Both the position numbers and the translations under genes were made by a program. The notes beneath the pieces were generated by a model that had not been told where the DNA came from, searched no databases, and worked only from the letters and a program-made list of their open reading frames with translations. A stretch of 64,000 nucleotides of DNA, taken from Phycisphaerales bacterium (GTDB lineage Bacteria > Planctomycetota > Phycisphaerae > Phycisphaerales > UBA5793). The stretch lies in assembly GCA_020852515.1 (NCBI GenBank), contig JADZAS010000016.1:312155-376154 (forward strand), read 5' to 3'. Numbering within the stretch: the stretch's first letter is position 1; every line of letters starts with the position of its first letter. Below, one piece after another: positions 4,544 to 46,524 of this stretch.

Positions 4544-7500
4544 CGCCGCCTCCCTGCGGTTTGTCCTTGCCCTGCTGACGGGCGCGGCGCTTGGCTTCGA
4601 GCAGGCGCGAGGTATACGAGCCCTCGTCCGCCTCGTCGGCGGCGGGCTCGGGCTTTGTGCGAGCCGGCGGCGGCTTCTTGAGCGATCCTTCGCCCTCATC
4701 GGACCCGACCTTGTCGAGATCGATCGCCGCTCCGCCGGCGGCGTCGGCCTCGAAGCGCGCCTCGGCCGCTTCGCGCTCCTCTGCGATCTGCTGCGAACTC
4801 TTGCGCCGGCCGGTGACGCGCTCCTGCACTTCACTGCGCGTCTGCTTGAGGCGATCGAGGCTCTGCCCAGCCGAAGACGAGCCGCCGTGCATCAAAGCGT
4901 ACATGCGCCGCCGCAGGGCGATCGGGTCGATGGCCAGCCGCCGCGCCGCCACGTCCATCAGGAACAGGCCAGCGGCGATGATCGCCATGAGCGGCCAGAT
5001 GTCGGTGAGACTCTTGGGCGTCTCAAGACCCTCGCGGTTGAAGAGATCAGCCTGCGCAGGGTCGCTGGGAAGTTCCCGCCCCTGCGTCACTCGCGCCAGG
5101 TTGGTCATCAGCGGCGCGTTGTCGCGCAGAGCGCTGAACTCCGGGCTGTACGGCACCGACACGCCGGACTGAATCGAACTGCGCTCGCCGTCGGCACTCT
5201 CGTAGATCATGTTGGCGATCCACGAGCCTTCTTCATCGACGGTGTACTCGCCGCGCCACTTGCCCGGCGCGATCTGCTGCAGATTGAAGAGTTCTTCCTT
5301 CAGTCCGGGCGAAAGCACGAGGGCGCTGATCTTGCCGAAGTTGGCGAACTGATTGTCGCTGCCGAGCACGTTGACTTCGACGATCGCCTTGTTGCCCTCG
5401 ATGCGCGTGGACTGCTGGATGTTGGTTGGAGCCGCCGGCCGCATGGACCAGCGCACGACCTGCTCCCAGAATCCCTGGAAGTCCGCCCAGTCCACCCAGG
5501 CCTGACCCCAACGGCTCGTGGCGTCGCTCGTGAAGGCGATGCTCTTGCCCAAGCCGTATTGCCACTGCGCCATGATCGGATCACGGTCGCCGAAGTTGCT
5601 GACTATCTCGGGGTCGTAGCCGGGGCGAGGCGCTGTCAGGACGTAGCCCTGCATGGTCGGCAGCGCGGGCCAGCGACCGGCGAACGGGCCGGGCCGACCG
5701 GTCGGCTGGTGGATCGCCTGGTAGGTCTCGCCCTCGACGATGAGCGAGCGGCGGACGATCATCGCCTCCTTGATGAAGATCTTGGGCATCTGGTTGGGCC
5801 GCGACGGGTTGTAGGCCGTTCCCCCGGTCTGACGGGCGATGTTGGCCATCTGCTGCACGTCCTGCGGGTTGCCGTGCCCGCCGGCGATGACGGTGGAGAT
5901 GGAGATCTTCGAGGCAATGAACTGGTTGATCATCGCCTGGCCCGGCGGACTCGGATCGCCGTCGGAGATGATGATGACGTGCTTCTGCCCCGCCGTGTTG
6001 TTCTGCAGCGCCGTGAGGGCCATCTGCATGGACGGGGCGAAGTCGGGCATGTCGCCCATCGTCATTTTCTTGATCGCGCTGATCGCGCCTGACTTGTCGC
6101 CGGCCGGGCTGAGCTTGTAGACCCAGTTGCACCCGGCATTCGGCCCGCCGACGTTCCAGTCAAAGTCGATGATGCCCACGTCATCCAGCCGGCTGAGCGC
6201 CTCGACGGCGGCAATGGCGCACTGCTGTCCCCAGTAGTTGCCCTGGGGGATTTCGCTGCTGTGCATGATGCACACGAGCGCGCCCTTGGGCATCTGGCTC
6301 TTCTCCGGCGGATCGAGCCGCACGGGCAGGGCTTTGGAGACTTCGCTGTTGATCCACCCGCCGGCGCCGAAACTGTCCGGCCCGCCGAGCATGATGAGTC
6401 CGCCGCCTATGTCATGCACGTAGCGCCGCAGCGCATCATCGACGCCCGCGCCAAACGCATGGGCCGGCACGTTGGCCAGGACGATCGAGTCGTAGCCGGA
6501 GAGAAAGAGCAGATCGCTCGTGACCTCACTGGGCAGCGCCGTATCGACTTCGATCGCGGCGTCGCGCATCGCCGCGCGCAGCGACGCGGTCTCGTCGGTC
6601 GTTTCGTGAATGACCAGCACGCGCCCCTCACCGCCCACGACGACCACTGCGTCGGCGCGGTTGTTTGTTGAGATCGGGTCGTCCTGCGGGTTGTCCGGCT
6701 CGAACTCGGCACGAAACCGCTGCGGGCCCTTCTGCGAGAGCGTCAGGTTCACCGTGCGGACGTTGATGCCTTCTTCCAGTTGGACGGGCACGCTCATGCT
6801 TGCCGGGTCGTCGGCGTTGAGATCGATGAGCGTGTCGTTCTGGTAAAGCGAGATGCGGCCGGTGGTGGCTTGGCGGCTGCGCAAGGCGAAGCGGAGCGAG
6901 ATGGGCTGGCCTTCGCGCGCCATCGACGGCGCCATGATCCGCTCGAACTTGACTTCCTTCTGGTAGTCGTAGGTCAACTTCAGAACGTCGATGGGAATCT
7001 TGTTGGCCCGGGCGATGTCCGCGACGGTCATGACGTTGCCCGTCGTCTCGTTGCCGTCGCTCACGAGTACGAAGCGCACGGCCGAATCGCGCGGCGCGAT
7101 GGCCAGGCCGAGGCGAACTGCATGCGCCAGGTTGGTCGCGTTGCGTTCTTCGATGGTCGTGTTCGGTTCGAGGATGGTGGCGCGATCGACCACCTGCACA
7201 ACGCGCGCCTCGGCGCCGATGTTGATCACGCCCAGGCGGTCAAAGGGCTGCTTGCCCTTGGGATCATCCGTGGCTCGCCGCAGGTACTCGAGCGCGTTCG
7301 CCTCGAGCTGGTGCGAGATCGAGTGGCTGCGGTCGATCATGAGGATGACCGTCATGCTCTCGCTGCGTTCGAGCCACTTGGGCTGGGCAACGGTGACGGC
7401 GATGAGGGCGATGACGAGGGAGCGCAGCGCGCAGATGATGCCGCGCCGCAGCGGGGACATGCCCGTGAGGTGCCTCCAGCCGAACCACACGACCGGCGGA

Positions 7501-7580
7501 ATGAGCAGACAGAGCAGAAGAGCGCCGGGATTGTCGAACTGAATGGGCAAGTCCATCGGCCTCGTAACGAAATGTCCCAT
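4536..7580 (-). CDS. Large membrane protein with VWA and GATase-like domains
   Basis: 1014 residues. Two N-terminal membrane helices (about 18-35 and 48-66) precede a first VWA domain with an intact metal motif (D83-x-S85-x-S87). A GATase1-like segment follows (about 320-420, with GGGLIMLGGPDSFG). A second VWA-like fold (about 430-600) has the ISDGDPSPP strand, but at the expected metal site it reads MHSSE, so the first Asp is missing. One more helix lies at about 880-900, then a charged, Lys/Arg-rich tail. It opens the operon. The start may instead be the ATG at 7556 (MDLPIQF), which has a GAGG just before it and gives the more usual family N-terminus. Confidence 0.85.
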   Translation of the reverse strand: MGHFVTRPMDLPIQFDNPGALLLCLLIPPVVWFGWRHLTGMSPLRRGIICALRSLVIALIAVTVAQPKWLERSESMTVILMIDRSHSISHQLEANALEYLRRATDDPKGKQPFDRLGVINIGAEARVVQVVDRATILEPNTTIEERNATNLAHAVRLGLAIAPRDSAVRFVLVSDGNETTGNVMTVADIARANKIPIDVLKLTYDYQKEVKFERIMAPSMAREGQPISLRFALRSRQATTGRISLYQNDTLIDLNADDPASMSVPVQLEEGINVRTVNLTLSQKGPQRFRAEFEPDNPQDDPISTNNRADAVVVVGGEGRVLVIHETTDETASLRAAMRDAAIEVDTALPSEVTSDLLFLSGYDSIVLANVPAHAFGAGVDDALRRYVHDIGGGLIMLGGPDSFGAGGWINSEVSKALPVRLDPPEKSQMPKGALVCIMHSSEIPQGNYWGQQCAIAAVEALSRLDDVGIIDFDWNVGGPNAGCNWVYKLSPAGDKSGAISAIKKMTMGDMPDFAPSMQMALTALQNNTAGQKHVIIISDGDPSPPGQAMINQFIASKISISTVIAGGHGNPQDVQQMANIARQTGGTAYNPSRPNQMPKIFIKEAMIVRRSLIVEGETYQAIHQPTGRPGPFAGRWPALPTMQGYVLTAPRPGYDPEIVSNFGDRDPIMAQWQYGLGKSIAFTSDATSRWGQAWVDWADFQGFWEQVVRWSMRPAAPTNIQQSTRIEGNKAIVEVNVLGSDNQFANFGKISALVLSPGLKEELFNLQQIAPGKWRGEYTVDEEGSWIANMIYESADGERSSIQSGVSVPYSPEFSALRDNAPLMTNLARVTQGRELPSDPAQADLFNREGLETPKSLTDIWPLMAIIAAGLFLMDVAARRLAIDPIALRRRMYALMHGGSSSAGQSLDRLKQTRSEVQERVTGRRKSSQQIAEEREAAEARFEADAAGGAAIDLDKVGSDEGEGSLKKPPPARTKPEPAADEADEGSYTSRLLEAKRRARQQGKDKPQGGGDG

Positions 7581-7603
7581 CGTCGCGGCGCGACGGTCGG
7601 GGC

Positions 7604-7609
7604 ATTATA
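7604..7609 (-). promoter_or_regulatory. Possible -10 element of the VWA/MoxR operon
   Basis: On the minus strand this hexamer is a perfect TATAAT, 24 bp before the annotated operon start. Transcription would begin near 7597, leaving a 17-nt or 41-nt leader depending on which ATG is used. No good -35 hexamer lies at 16-18 bp, which is why confidence is moderate. Confidence 0.4.
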
Positions 7610-7682
7610 CCGAAGGCGATGGGGTAATTGACGCTGCCCGCCGGACATTTCCGGCAAGCGGCACTGCACGACGGGCGGATCG

Positions 7683-8231
7683 TCAGGTCGCCAGCGCCGG
7701 CGCGGGAATCGGCATGTCGTACTCGCGGGCGGCCTTCCGGGCTCCCTTGGGCAGGCCGATGGTCTGGGCACTGATCTTGTCCTGCAGGCGCATGAGGCCC
7801 TCAATGAGCGCCTCGGGCCGCGGCGGGCAGCCGGGCACGTAGATATCCACGGGCACGACGAGATCGACGCCCTTGACGACGTGATAGCCGTACTTGAAGT
7901 ACGGCCCGCCGCCGACGGTGCACGCGCCCATGGCGATGACGTACTTGGGATCGGGCATCTGCTCGTAGAGCCGGCGCACGCGGGAGGCCATCTTGTACGT
8001 CACAGTGCCGGCGACGATCATGAGATCCGACTGCCGGGGTGTGGCGCGGAAAGCGCCGGCGCCGAATCGATCGACGTCAAATCGCGAAGCACCGAAGGCC
8101 ATCATCTCGATCGCGCAGCACGCCAGGCCGAAGGTCATGGGCCAGATGCTCGACTTGCGGGCCCAGTTGAGCGCGAAATCGACGCCGGTGATGATGAGAT
8201 TGTCTTCGAAACGGTTCTCGATCCAACTCAT
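7683..8231 (-). CDS. nuoB: NADH-quinone oxidoreductase subunit B
   Basis: 182 residues from the ATG at 8231; the 40 in-frame codons before it are non-conserved. NuoB carries 4Fe-4S cluster N2, the last electron carrier before quinone in complex I. The ligands are visible: the CC pair in [11 protein letters not shown], the Cys in GACTVGG, and the Cys in [10 protein letters not shown]. The protein belongs to the peripheral arm. No other nuo gene is adjacent: the upstream neighbour is a secreted protein and the downstream one is the VWA operon. The gene is therefore transcribed on its own or with non-nuo genes, which is unusual. Confidence 0.95.
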
Positions 8232-8351
8232 GATGGCTGCAGTTCCATGTCGTGAAAGGGCCGCGCAGACCCGATGAGGCGTGGATGGGATTGTAGTGCA
8301 GGCCCGGTCCACGAGCCAGCGCCGAGAGTCGTGGATACACCGCAAATGCAA

Positions 8352-8379
8352 GCGGGCCGCCGGCTGACCGGCGACCCGC
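8352..8379 (-). terminator. Hairpin terminator after the secretin-N-like gene
   Basis: A strong inverted repeat: GCGGG and GCCGG on one side pair with CCGGC and CCCGC on the other, with a 4-nt loop and a 2-nt internal mismatch. It lies 29 bp beyond the stop at 8409. On the minus strand it is followed by TTGCATTTG, a weak U-tract, so termination efficiency is uncertain. Confidence 0.5.
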
Positions 8380-8408
8380 GGTTATGGACGTGATGTGATT
8401 GCGATGGC

Positions 8409-9356
8409 TTACCTGCCGGGATCGCCCGAGTCGATGACGCGGCCGCCGACGAGCACCGGGATGCTCGATTCTTCGATGTCCACGATCTTCGCCACGCCCC
8501 AGTCACCGGTCAGTGTGACGTAGCGCGGCGAAGGGATGGCATTGGCCAGGCCAAGGCCGCGTCCGCCGGCGTTGGCCGAGGACCGAGCGCCGTTCGTGCG
8601 GGCCGGAGCGAAGGGATATCCGCCAACCTGGCGATGCAGGTAGTCGGACGCGTTGATGATGAGATTGCCGCGGAAGTAGCGGATGCTGCCGCCGTCGCCG
8701 CCGAGCGATTCCCACTGCGTGGGCTCGACGATCGAGGTGATGATGTCGATCAGTTCGTTGGCCTGATCCGCCTCATTGCCGCGAGCGACGTTGTTCTCAT
8801 CACCCTGATCATCGCGGAAGAACTGACCCGAACTTCCGCCGCCGCCGCCCTGGCCGCTCCGCGAGCTGCTCTGCAGCACCTGGTTGAGGTCCAGTTGCGG
8901 CGCGTTGTCGAAGCGAGGCGGCACAAAGAGCAGTTCGCGCACCGGGTAGATGCGGACGTACTTGTTCTTGTTAAGGATCGACTTGGTGCCGATCTCGACG
9001 TAGCCGTCGCCGAGCACCCAAGTCGTCTCCTCGTCGGTCGCCTGCTTCATGACGAGTTCGAGAATGGTGAGCAGCGAGGTCGGGTTCTTGAGTTGAAGCG
9101 TGATCTTCGCGTTCGGATCGAATCCCTCGCCGAAGCCTTCTTCGTTCCACTTGGCGAGGATGTCGAGGTTCGCCAGTTCGGAGAGGAAGCCGACGACGGT
9201 GCGGAACTCGTGTCCGCTGAAGTCCACGGTGGGCAGTTCGGTGTTGAGCAGTTTGCCCAGCGCTTCAGAACGTGCCTGCATATCCTGGGCCGAGGCCACA
9301 GCCGCCGCACCACCCAGCACAGCCGTCGCAGCGAGAGTCATGATAAATCGACGCAT
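8409..9356 (-). CDS. Secreted secretin-N/STN-like protein
   Basis: 315 residues. The ATG at 9356 is chosen because AAGGAG lies 6 bp upstream; another ATG 27 bp further upstream has no such site. A signal peptide (MRRFIMTLAATAVLGG, cleavage near ASA-QD) is followed by an STN/secretin-N0-like domain (about 30-130) and a second domain with NLIINASDYLHRQVGGYPF near 220-245. A Gly/Ser-rich linker joins them. The fold resembles N-domains of type II/III secretins, but there is no pore domain. A role in the envelope is likely; the partner is unknown. Confidence 0.75.
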   Translation of the reverse strand: MRRFIMTLAATAVLGGAAAVASAQDMQARSEALGKLLNTELPTVDFSGHEFRTVVGFLSELANLDILAKWNEEGFGEGFDPNAKITLQLKNPTSLLTILELVMKQATDEETTWVLGDGYVEIGTKSILNKNKYVRIYPVRELLFVPPRFDNAPQLDLNQVLQSSSRSGQGGGGGSSGQFFRDDQGDENNVARGNEADQANELIDIITSIVEPTQWESLGGDGGSIRYFRGNLIINASDYLHRQVGGYPFAPARTNGARSSANAGGRGLGLANAIPSPRYVTLTGDWGVAKIVDIEESSIPVLVGGRVIDSGDPGR

Positions 9357-44405: not shown

Positions 44406-45251
44406 TCACGTCCACTCGAGTGAGAAGAAGATCGTGGTGAAGATCAGGTCGGCGAAGATGACCGACACCACGCTCGCCACCACGGTCGCGGTGGTGGCGC
44501 GACCGACGCCCGCGGCGCCGCCGGTTACGCGCAGGCCGTTGTAGCACGAAATCAGTCCGATGAGCATCCCGAACACCGCCGCCTTGACCAGCCCCGTGAG
44601 CAGGTCACCGGGTTTGCACTGGCTGAGCGTGTTGTCCCAGTACTGCACCGCCGGCACATCGTGCACGTAGACCGAAATAAACATGCCCGCGGCGATCGCG
44701 ACGATGTTGGAGATCACCGTCAGGCACACCAGCGAGAACGTGGTCGCGATCACGCGCGGCACCACGAGAAACCGCACCGGATTGAGCGCGTGTGCCTCGA
44801 GCGCTTCGATTTCCTCGCCGACCACCATGGTCCCGACCTCGGCGGCGACGGCGGCGCCGGCAAAGCCGGTGAGGATAACGGCGCTGATGAGCGGGCCCAG
44901 TTCGCGCAGCACCGCCACCCCGATGATGTTGGCGATCTTGTCCGTCTGGCCGAAATCGCGCAGCGGCGGCTCCATCTGCAGCGCCAGGATGGCGCCGATG
45001 GCCATCGAGAGCAGCATCACGATGCCGATGGCCCGCGCGCCAAGGCGGACGACCTGGCTGACGATAGCGACGCGGCCCAGCCGGATGCGGCGCGAGGCGA
45101 GCGCCTTGGTGATCCAGCGCATCACGTCAACGAAGAGGTACCACACGCCCCCGACGTTGTGCTGGAAGTCGAGCCACCGCTCACCGACAAACGCGACGCC
45201 CTGCACGGCGCGGGAGGAGGCGGGCTCGGTCTGGGGCTCAGCTTCGCTCAT
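44406..45251 (-). CDS. mlaE: MlaE-type ABC transporter permease
   Basis: 281 residues with about five membrane helices. The MlaE/PF02405 family signature is clear: VLRELGPLISAVILTGFAGAAVAAEVGTMVVGEEIEALEAH and NPVRFLVVPRVIA. Such permeases move phospholipids between membranes together with an ATPase (MlaF) and an MCE protein (MlaD). Neither partner is encoded next to it; upstream on the same strand are a STAS protein (45296-45643) and an anti-sigma-type kinase. MlaB, the usual fourth subunit, is a STAS protein, which makes this neighbourhood notable. Confidence 0.9.
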   Translation of the reverse strand: MSEAEPQTEPASSRAVQGVAFVGERWLDFQHNVGGVWYLFVDVMRWITKALASRRIRLGRVAIVSQVVRLGARAIGIVMLLSMAIGAILALQMEPPLRDFGQTDKIANIIGVAVLRELGPLISAVILTGFAGAAVAAEVGTMVVGEEIEALEAHALNPVRFLVVPRVIATTFSLVCLTVISNIVAIAAGMFISVYVHDVPAVQYWDNTLSQCKPGDLLTGLVKAAVFGMLIGLISCYNGLRVTGGAAGVGRATTATVVASVVSVIFADLIFTTIFFSLEWT

Positions 45252-45295
45252 GGGATGCAGTGCAAATCAACAGGCGGCAGTCGAGGCGGTGCAGC

Positions 45296-45643
45296 CTAGG
45301 CCAGCAGCGCCTCGTCAAGCGAATCGACGATCTTGAAAACCATATCGAGCCGGGCGATCTCGAAGATTGAACGAACCCGCTCGTGCAGGCCGCAGAGAAT
45401 CACGGATCCGTGGTAGCGGCGGGCAACCTGCATGGCCTCGACGAGCGTTGCCACGCCCGAACTGTCCATATAGGGCACTTCCGTGAGGTCGAAGATCAGA
45501 CGCCGCGGCTTGTCGGTCTGCGCGCGGCTGATGGTCGTGCGCAGCGACGGCGAGCGCGCCAGATCGATCTCCCCCGAAGGGCGCAGGACGACGGCGTCGC
45601 CTTGCTGCTCAAATTCAACCGGGACTTCGTCTGTGCTGGCCAT
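45296..45643 (-). CDS. STAS-domain protein (anti-anti-sigma or MlaB-like)
   Basis: 115 residues, one STAS domain. The phospho-acceptor loop is intact: VPYMDSSGVATLVEA, with Ser after Asp, as in SpoIIAA/RsbV proteins. It could control a sigma factor by partner switching with the HATPase protein whose gene ends 1 bp upstream, or serve as the MlaB-like subunit of the MlaE transporter encoded 44 bp downstream. The sequence does not decide between the two. Cytosolic. Confidence 0.88.
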   Translation of the reverse strand: MASTDEVPVEFEQQGDAVVLRPSGEIDLARSPSLRTTISRAQTDKPRRLIFDLTEVPYMDSSGVATLVEAMQVARRYHGSVILCGLHERVRSIFEIARLDMVFKIVDSLDEALLA

Positions 45644-45644
45644 G

Positions 45645-46106
45645 TCAGGCCGGTTCCTTCCTGGCTTGCGGCATCGACTGCTCGCCCGCGATGTGTTTTT
45701 CCATGAGCAGCGACATGCCGCCGCCGTCGCGCTTCTCGTACTGCACTCGATCCATCACCTGGCTGATGATGTGCACGCCGAGGCCGCCGGGCCGGATGTC
45801 ATCGAGTTGGCGCGACCGGATCTCCGACGGCTCGACCTGGCGCCCGCGATCTTCGATGAGAATGCGGATGCCGCAACACTGACCCTCAAGCGGCCAGACG
45901 CTGATCCAGATGTGCTGGTCTTCACGCTTCCCATAGCCGTGCTTGATCACGTTGCACAGCGCTTCATCGAGCGCCAGCGCCACGTGGGCGCAGTCGGCCT
46001 CGCGAAAGCCCAGCCGCCGGGCCACCGACGCGATCATCGCCCGCGCTCCGGCGAGGTAGCGCGGCTGAGAGAGCATGTCGATCTTCACGTGAGGGTCAGC
46101 GGTCAA
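45645..46106 (-). CDS. RsbW/SpoIIAB-like serine kinase, HATPase domain
   Basis: 153 residues from TTG 46106, chosen because AAAGGA lies 6 bp upstream; GTG 46088 or ATG 46139 are possible. It is a GHKL ATPase with N box DEALCNVIKHGYG, G1 box EDRGRQV (DxG retained) and G2-like PGGLGVHIISQVMD. In partner switching such kinases phosphorylate the STAS protein and hold an anti-sigma target. The gene overlaps the end of the upstream lipoprotein gene by 11 bp and precedes the STAS gene by 1 bp. Confidence 0.87.
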   Translation of the reverse strand: MTADPHVKIDMLSQPRYLAGARAMIASVARRLGFREADCAHVALALDEALCNVIKHGYGKREDQHIWISVWPLEGQCCGIRILIEDRGRQVEPSEIRSRQLDDIRPGGLGVHIISQVMDRVQYEKRDGGGMSLLMEKHIAGEQSMPQARKEPA

Positions 46107-46524
46107 GGAGCGTCCTTTCGCTCGCTGAGGTCGTTTCAAGTGTATCCGGCAGCAGCGGCGTGCCGTCGCGCAGGGTGAGTTCGCCGCCGAGCCAGGCTTC
46201 GCTCCATCGCTTCACTGCGGGGGACCGCACCCACTCCGGGTCATAGTGCCGGTAGCCGCAGGTCTCCCCCGTCAGTTCGTAGAGCGCCTCGGCGCTGAGC
46301 AGGCGAACCGCGGGATCGTCCGATTCGAGGTTGCGGATGAGACCGGGGATGGCGGCCCGGACCTTGCCGGGGTCGGTCTCGGCTGCGGCGCGACGGGTGG
46401 CGAAGAGCCGTGCCGCCGGCTGCGGCGAGTCGAAGTCGCCCGTGATCGCCGGCGGACCACATGACGCCGGGCCGAGCAGGGTCGCGCCAATCACAGCCGG
46501 CACAAGAAAGGAGGCACACCGCAT
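46096..46524 (-). CDS. Putative lipoprotein with HEAT-like region
   Basis: 142 residues from ATG 46524 ([13 protein letters not shown]); ATG 46551 is possible. The hydrophobic core ends in GPASC, a weak lipobox with Pro at -3, so lipid attachment is likely but not certain. The mature part has one helix pair resembling a HEAT repeat ([30 protein letters not shown]), then a short region with Trp ([19 protein letters not shown]). No enzyme motif. It heads the RsbW-STAS-MlaE gene run and overlaps RsbW. Confidence 0.65.

Follow-up and report, generated by a model that had tools for sequence, protein, structure and literature searches.

The window analysed here is a stretch of 64,000 nucleotides (C16:312155-376154) taken from a genome of 4.72 Mb, which its closest named relatives place in the planctomycete order Phycisphaerales. 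Its minus strand carries four genes that run head to tail and encode a small lipoprotein, an RsbW/SpoIIAB-like kinase, a STAS protein and an MlaE-type permease. An initial annotation had recognised the last three as neighbours between 44406 and 46106, and all three were confirmed there. The features of this cassette are, in the order of transcription:

46096..46524, minus strand: small lipoprotein whose helices are HEAT-like; the operon begins with this gene (lipobox, HEAT matches and structure model)
45645..46106, minus strand: RsbW/SpoIIAB-like GHKL serine kinase (HATPase_c_2, 86.8 bits)
45296..45643, minus strand: STAS protein of the SpoIIAA/RsbV type (PF01740, 88.6 bits)
45461..45463, minus strand: codon of Ser61, the first serine of the DSSG motif (read from the sequence)
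44406..45251, minus strand: MlaE-type lipid ABC transporter permease (PF02405, 228.3 bits against a cut-off of 22.5)

The reading frame of the kinase was listed as 45645-46139, and its likely start is a TTG codon at 46106 that is preceded by AAAGGA. The kinase gene begins inside the lipoprotein gene, sharing its last 11 bases, and a single base separates the stop codon of the kinase from the start codon of the STAS gene (TGA-C-ATG). A gene named guaA by reading lies divergently upstream of the cassette and a UbiA-type gene lies convergently downstream, and a promoter scan revealed no promoter. As for the lipoprotein, its lipobox cysteine (Cys22) is invariant among 56 aligned proteins, its HEAT matches stay under the cut-off, and its model is helical (pLDDT 87.5) and yielded only weak helical-repeat matches in a structure search. 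HEAT-like lipoproteins with an invariant lipobox cysteine come first in the operon in several families (L191, L195, L210, L216), and the lipoprotein is present even at loci without the kinase (L117, L216). One might guess that this protein reports from the envelope.

The permease is the only MlaE match of the genome. A profile built from 48 of its relatives retrieved solved MlaE chains with E-values of 2e-47 and 3.4e-45, and the protein itself scored 205.6 bits against TIGR00056, just under the cut-off of 212.2; we assign it to the MlaE-family permeases of Mla/MCE lipid ABC transporters. That no ATPase or MCE gene accompanies it, as the initial annotation had noted, was borne out by mapping MCE and MlaF matches genome-wide, with neither an MCE gene nor a close MlaF falling inside the window. 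The genome does encode both an MlaF-type ATPase and an MCE protein, apart from MlaE: the sole MlaF match at E≤1e-40 is located at C16:174571-175503, approximately 180 kb from MlaE, and an MCE gene comes 24 bases behind it. The MCE matches of the genome map to C16:175708-175914, 242276-242458 and 242537-242806, the gene at 242 kb accounting for two of them and adjoining a frame that was read by eye as PqiA-like. Because there is only one MlaE and one close MlaF, at separate loci, permease and ATPase presumably assemble from two loci. Behind this MlaF, the MCE gene is followed and overlapped by an alpha/beta hydrolase (lipase-like) gene (L115 8799-10265, G000:C16).

Seven matches to PF01740 (one under the cut-off) were found in the genome, and seven matches to PF13466 (two under the cut-off) fell in the same genes. 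Only one of these seven STAS genes is located at MlaE, and no match of either Pfam family was found near the MlaF-MCE pair, making the STAS gene beside MlaE the one MlaB candidate by position. A separate and complete mla operon with an MlaB of its own was also considered, and none was found in the genome, in which the MlaF-MCE pair has neither MlaE nor STAS.

The STAS protein contains the motif D60-S61-S62-G63, in agreement with the earlier claim that it keeps the phospho-serine, and Ser61 aligns both with the phospho-serine of SpoIIAA, which we take to be Ser58, and with the Thr52 site of MlaB. It thereby carries the phospho-acceptor serine of a partner-switching module. Compared with solved chains, the STAS profile scored 98.9 bits with TM1442, 66.8 with RsbV and 65.5 with SpoIIAA, and only 26.1 bits with MlaB. 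The structure model (pLDDT 95.5) was nearest to kinase-bound SpoIIAA (1th8_B; Z 19.5, rmsd 1.4 over 110 residues, TM 0.88), its TM values with MlaB chains ranging from 0.58 to 0.68. Also present in the model are a fifth strand, which is short, and a helix at the C-terminus, two elements that MlaB does without according to the available part of its structural description (PMC7367683). By profile and by fold, the protein is therefore nearer to SpoIIAA/RsbV than to MlaB. Its score against the MlaB equivalog NF033618 was 23 bits, under the cut-off of 90, and we therefore refer to it as MlaB-like and not as MlaB; it likewise scores under the cut-off of the curated SpoIIAA equivalog.

The profile of the kinase scored 69.4 bits with RsbW and 45.7 bits with SpoIIAB among solved chains. 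Its GHKL domain has intact N and G boxes, with Asp45, Glu46, Asn50, His54 and Asp84 invariant where present (75 of 76 rows) and PGG.G found in 76/76 rows, these rows including one fragment and several near copies. Against the curated RsbW/SpoIIAB equivalogs it reached 62.3 bits (cut-off 145), 53.2 bits (cut-off 155.05) and 49.6 bits (cut-off 135). Judged from its sequence, the kinase is a relative of RsbW and SpoIIAB and neither one itself. The co-variation of kinase and STAS gave a partial Mantel r of 0.36 over 54 rows and of 0.15 (p 0.07) over 43 Phycisphaerae, no stronger than that of kinase and MlaE, for which r was 0.35 in both sets.

The adjacency of the three genes proved to be kept in relatives. 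Kinase, STAS and MlaE follow each other in the same order and on the same strand in 68 of the 80 loci that gave the best of 174 MlaE matches. Among the 12 loci outside this count, five are on contigs that reach less than 1,200 bases upstream, neither kinase nor STAS was found at L053, L071, L082 and L102, no kinase at L054 and L106, and no STAS at L084. These best 80 of 174 matches came from a single collection scan with MlaE, which sets the reach of the comparison beyond Planctomycetota, and all of them belong to Planctomycetota by name except one Vicinamibacteraceae and one plain 'bacterium'. Within the order, a kinase lies on the same strand and at most 2 kb upstream of MlaE in at least 29 of 41 genomes (this genome included), and the rows compared gave no linkage for the other 12. 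In 14 of those 29 genomes, MlaE and MlaF each gave exactly one match, and there the two presumably work together. Across the phylum, at least 24 of 149 genomes have a kinase at most 1.5 kb upstream of MlaE; they span 17 families and include this genome along with five others from its order. In 8 more genomes a kinase lies within 5 kb of MlaE in another arrangement, and for the remaining 117 the rows compared revealed no linkage. The order and phylum counts are lower bounds, kinase matches in the phylum having been taken at E≤1e-12. Starting from the kinase, 22 of the 25 best phylum matches to its profile have an MlaE no more than 5 kb away, and two of the remaining three are on contigs shorter than 4 kb. 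This adjacency is far beyond chance: the counts for loci, order and phylum rule out coincidence.

Another MlaE gene occurs in many relatives within the order (L005-L027, L029), and neither a STAS nor a kinase match lies within about 1.5 kb of it. These relatives also encode another MlaF elsewhere, so that this second set is split again (the other MlaF copies being L296-L315).

The wider architecture of the locus was derived from 20 loci that had been fetched because a kinase was near MlaE, and from other phylum loci, most of which had been chosen for a kinase close to MlaE or for good scores, and some for an MlaE that had no kinase in view; all these sets show architecture and not frequency. 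Kinase, STAS and MlaE occur in this order in 18 of the 20 loci, and MlaF comes next in 15 of those 18 (L191, L192, L195, L196, L198, L199, L202-L210), many of them with an MCE match behind it; no MlaF match was found at the locus in L193, L194 and L197. In L200 and L201 the order is MlaE..MlaF-STAS-kinase, with the linkage kept. Within the order of the window itself, G017 (L116) has kinase, STAS, MlaE and MlaF together, as the only such genome among the 29. Given the full operons in other families and in G017, the separation of MlaF from the trio in Phycisphaerales looks secondary. In sister operons, the STAS domain is fused to MlaE. A fusion of another kind was observed at L128 3018-4943 (G010:C32), where matches to MlaF (55 bits) and MlaE (28 bits) share one frame of 642 codons, apparently a fused ATPase-permease.

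Using a profile built from eight SpoIIE domains of this genome, we found a SpoIIE-type phosphatase adjoining the kinase or fused to it in 9 of 30 loci (L191-L220). The phosphatase gene lies directly beside the kinase in L199, L205, L206 and L211-L213, and the two form a single open frame in L200, L201 and L215. No MlaE was seen at L215, and the kinase-phosphatase set of L211-L213 is encoded on the strand opposite to MlaE, at a distance of about 3 kb. Pfam confirmed the SpoIIE domain in 6/6 scanned cases, in combinations such as FHA-GAF (L205), HAMP (L213) and kinase-GAF-SpoIIE (L200, L201). In L078, L079 and L081, a phosphatase is found within 10 kb and not beside the kinase. This genome has nine SpoIIE matches, all of them elsewhere, since the genome-wide search with the SpoIIE profile yielded no match near the cassette of the window. 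RsbW-like kinases away from MlaE have phosphatase neighbours as well (L186-L189), and a phosphatase neighbourhood alone is therefore not special to Mla.

The initial annotation had placed two readings side by side, namely that lipid transport is controlled by a phosphorylation switch or that two unrelated modules happen to be neighbours. The latter, with a stress-signalling pair located next to a lipid permease by chance, could draw on a second STAS-kinase pair at C16:80244-81053, which stands away from any MlaE and is probably an ordinary partner switch. However, the order kept across the phylum, the operons in which MlaF is included, the loci that are reordered yet linked, the fusions of STAS to MlaE and the phosphatases linked to the kinase make such a coincidence extremely improbable, and we rejected it. 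Conserved linkage, kinase-STAS-MlaE-MlaF operons and phosphatase links instead favour the phosphorylation switch, by which a modification of the STAS protein would affect transport. The initial annotation had named two outcomes as refuting the switch, namely an adjacency lost in relatives and a second, complete mla operon equipped with an MlaB, and neither was seen.

In E. coli, Tyr261, Leu265 and Leu266 of MlaF sit between MlaB and MlaF (PMC7367683). The alignment of E. coli MlaF with the remote MlaF of this genome extends over this C-terminal tail (DYHADLL versus NYEEDLL), with a match at all three residues. We counted the tail motif (Tyr...Leu-Leu) within the last 60 residues of MlaF in all groups, using a pattern that had been loosened from Tyr-x3-Leu-Leu after a first look and rows that are related by descent, so that the counts are not independent. 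The motif was present in 19/21 remote MlaF proteins from genomes with a split cassette, in 14/21 kinase-linked operons (the other 7 being without the strict motif) and in 5/7 operons with a separate STAS and no kinase. It was found in 0/19 cases with a fused STAS, in 0/22 without a STAS match and in 1/20 of the other MlaF copies of the order, which had been fetched with little flank and of which the single positive lies inside the ATPase core. Near misses were scored as misses (L287, L292, L192), and the tail is truly absent from L200, L201, L206, L211-L213, L250 and L251. The genome thus encodes a STAS protein together with MlaE and an MlaF with a docking tail, the combination looked for in an MlaB subunit, and this tail is the best evidence, on the level of sequence, that the STAS protein may work as MlaB.

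The MlaF proteins of L200, L201 and L250, from a lineage in which STAS comes after MlaF, end in Cys-x2-Cys...Cys-x2-Cys, which resembles a small zinc ribbon.

The residue at the Ser61 position was followed through loci with and without the kinase. Kinase-linked STAS proteins have Ser or Thr at the site in 75/75 rows (68 Ser-Ser and 7 Thr-Pro), and a second set of kinase-linked STAS proteins has Ser in 27/27. Where a separate STAS occurs at a locus without kinase, the serine is kept in 9/11 rows of the first set (two of them at contig ends, and two rows representing one locus) and, for those beside MlaE, in 6/6 of the second set (L251 being near a contig end). The kinase-less rows L119_1, L249 (not beside MlaE) and L250 stand outside this second count, the STAS of L250 lying beside MlaF on a contig that ends where a kinase would be. 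STAS domains fused to MlaE (n=20, no kinase) have 4 Ser, 5 Thr, 9 Gly and 2 Ala, which amounts to Ser/Thr in 9/20. On an MlaE tree of 94 rows, made with a quick method, kinase linkage changed at least 8 times, and 6 independent pairs had almost the same Ser/Thr content with and without kinase, a number too small for significance. Loss of the serine alongside loss of the kinase, which was expected, was not seen. Seven loci (L042, L043, L058, L067, L086, L089, L099) carry NTPG in place of DSSG and keep the kinase, constituting a natural Ser-to-Thr variant, and these NTPG loci share one concerted change in the kinase.

The Ser/Thr site is thus kept in STAS proteins that form a subunit of their own, whether or not a kinase is present. 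Since the serine is retained in most separate STAS proteins that are without a kinase, it has a role that does not depend on this kinase, and its retention alone is no proof of phosphorylation. Such retention fits MlaB, because the T52A substitution in E. coli abolishes ATPase activity there, with assembly kept (PMC5016091). This substitution and the persistence of the serine where the kinase gene is absent could be read to mean that the kinase is an assembly or sequestration partner only, with Ser61 being structural or catalytic, as Thr52 of MlaB may be, and no phosphorylation taking place. However, the invariant residues and the PGG.G motif of the kinase might not be needed for binding alone, and a phosphatase is linked in some relatives, so we regard a purely binding role as quite improbable.

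Another explanation inverts the direction of signalling and makes the transporter the sensor: STAS freed from MlaF would occupy an anti-sigma kinase and thereby release a sigma factor, through which lipid traffic would report the state of the envelope to transcription. By profile, the kinase belongs with anti-sigma factors and the STAS protein with anti-anti-sigma factors, and the founding partner-switch systems end at a sigma factor. However, no sigma factor gene was recognised by reading beside the cassette within the window, and six frames upstream of the kinase in relatives (L203, L204, L207, L208, L116) contain no sigma-factor domain. Moreover, the kinase stays with MlaE throughout the 17 families and scores far under the curated RsbW and SpoIIAB cut-offs, and we therefore consider the sensor explanation unlikely. 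At L203, the region upstream of the kinase (6601-8873) has a weak zf-HC2 (anti-sigma-like) match and another protein, a possible sigma link at that locus.

Taken together, we estimate a probability of about two in three that the trio is the regulated half of an Mla-type lipid ABC transporter, with the STAS protein as an MlaB-like subunit under kinase/phosphatase control. The following account of the phosphorylation, of which way the switch works, of its effect on transport and of the signal is inferred. The STAS protein would dock on the C-terminal tail of MlaF and let MlaF work on MlaE. The RsbW/SpoIIAB-like kinase would bind the STAS protein and phosphorylate Ser61, and either this phosphate or sequestration by the kinase would remove STAS from MlaF, causing transport to go down. 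If SpoIIAA and MlaB serve as a model, the phosphate group of Ser61 would be placed at the contact with MlaF and would drive MlaF off. Thr52 of MlaB is located in the MlaF interface and its phosphomimetic variant T52E weakens binding (PMC7367683), so that, together with this analogy, unphosphorylated STAS would correspond to transport being on, with the kinase turning it off and the phosphatase resetting it. A SpoIIE-type phosphatase, in this genome probably one of the nine encoded elsewhere, would reverse the phosphorylation of Ser61 on a signal, which may enter via the GAF, FHA or HAMP parts that the phosphatase has in other families.

More broadly, we lean towards the view that a whole partner switch has been rewired from transcription to a membrane machine, its STAS substrate being the activating subunit of MlaFE. 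Under such rewiring, the kinase-GAF-phosphatase proteins of some families would both write and erase the mark, and nature would provide a writer and an eraser for the site proposed on MlaB. How MlaB activity is set is described as an open question, for which phosphorylation is a possibility that is not established in cells (PMC7367683). The operons described here give a candidate kinase, phosphatase and substrate that are encoded with the transporter and that can be tested with few proteins. If the proposed switch is true, intermembrane lipid traffic could be quickly switched by signalling, and the STAS partner switch, a mechanism known so far mainly from gene regulation, would serve machines other than sigma factors.

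Compared with known systems, the planctomycete cassette resembles MlaFEDB of E. coli in its MlaE, in an MlaF tail with a Tyr and two Leu at MlaB-binding spacing, in an MCE gene beside MlaF and in a STAS protein encoded on its own that has Ser/Thr where MlaB has Thr52. In contrast to MlaFEDB, it has a dedicated kinase gene, joined in some relatives by a phosphatase, its STAS protein has the length and fold of SpoIIAA/RsbV whereas MlaB is shorter, and MlaF and MCE are encoded elsewhere in this genome. A kinase for MlaB is not reported in the available portions of PMC7367683 and PMC5016091. MlaE proteins with an N-terminal STAS fusion have been noted earlier (PMC1810536, PMC5016091), and such fusions share with the cassette that STAS is tied to MlaE, with MlaF adjoining in nearly all fetched cases, in Planctomycetota too. 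The fusions differ in that no kinase was found with them, that Ser/Thr is lost in 11/20 and that their MlaF proteins are devoid of the docking tail.

A survey of Mla across bacterial phyla covers the same core of MlaE, MlaF and MlaD, with PVC bacteria included, and reports MlaB to be sparsely distributed; kinase, RsbW and anti-sigma are absent from the accessible part of its main text (PMC10665443). No paper joining RsbW and MlaE was found in our literature search, whose scope lay outside preprints and most subscription journals. The parts of the cassette are of known kinds, and their union is absent from the papers found. With the SpoIIAB-SpoIIAA-SpoIIE and RsbW-RsbV-RsbU systems, finally, the cassette shares a GHKL serine kinase, a STAS protein with a conserved serine and, in some relatives, a SpoIIE-type phosphatase with GAF, FHA or HAMP. 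It differs from these systems in that its kinase and STAS score under the equivalog cut-offs, and in that it is tied to a transporter, not to a sigma factor.
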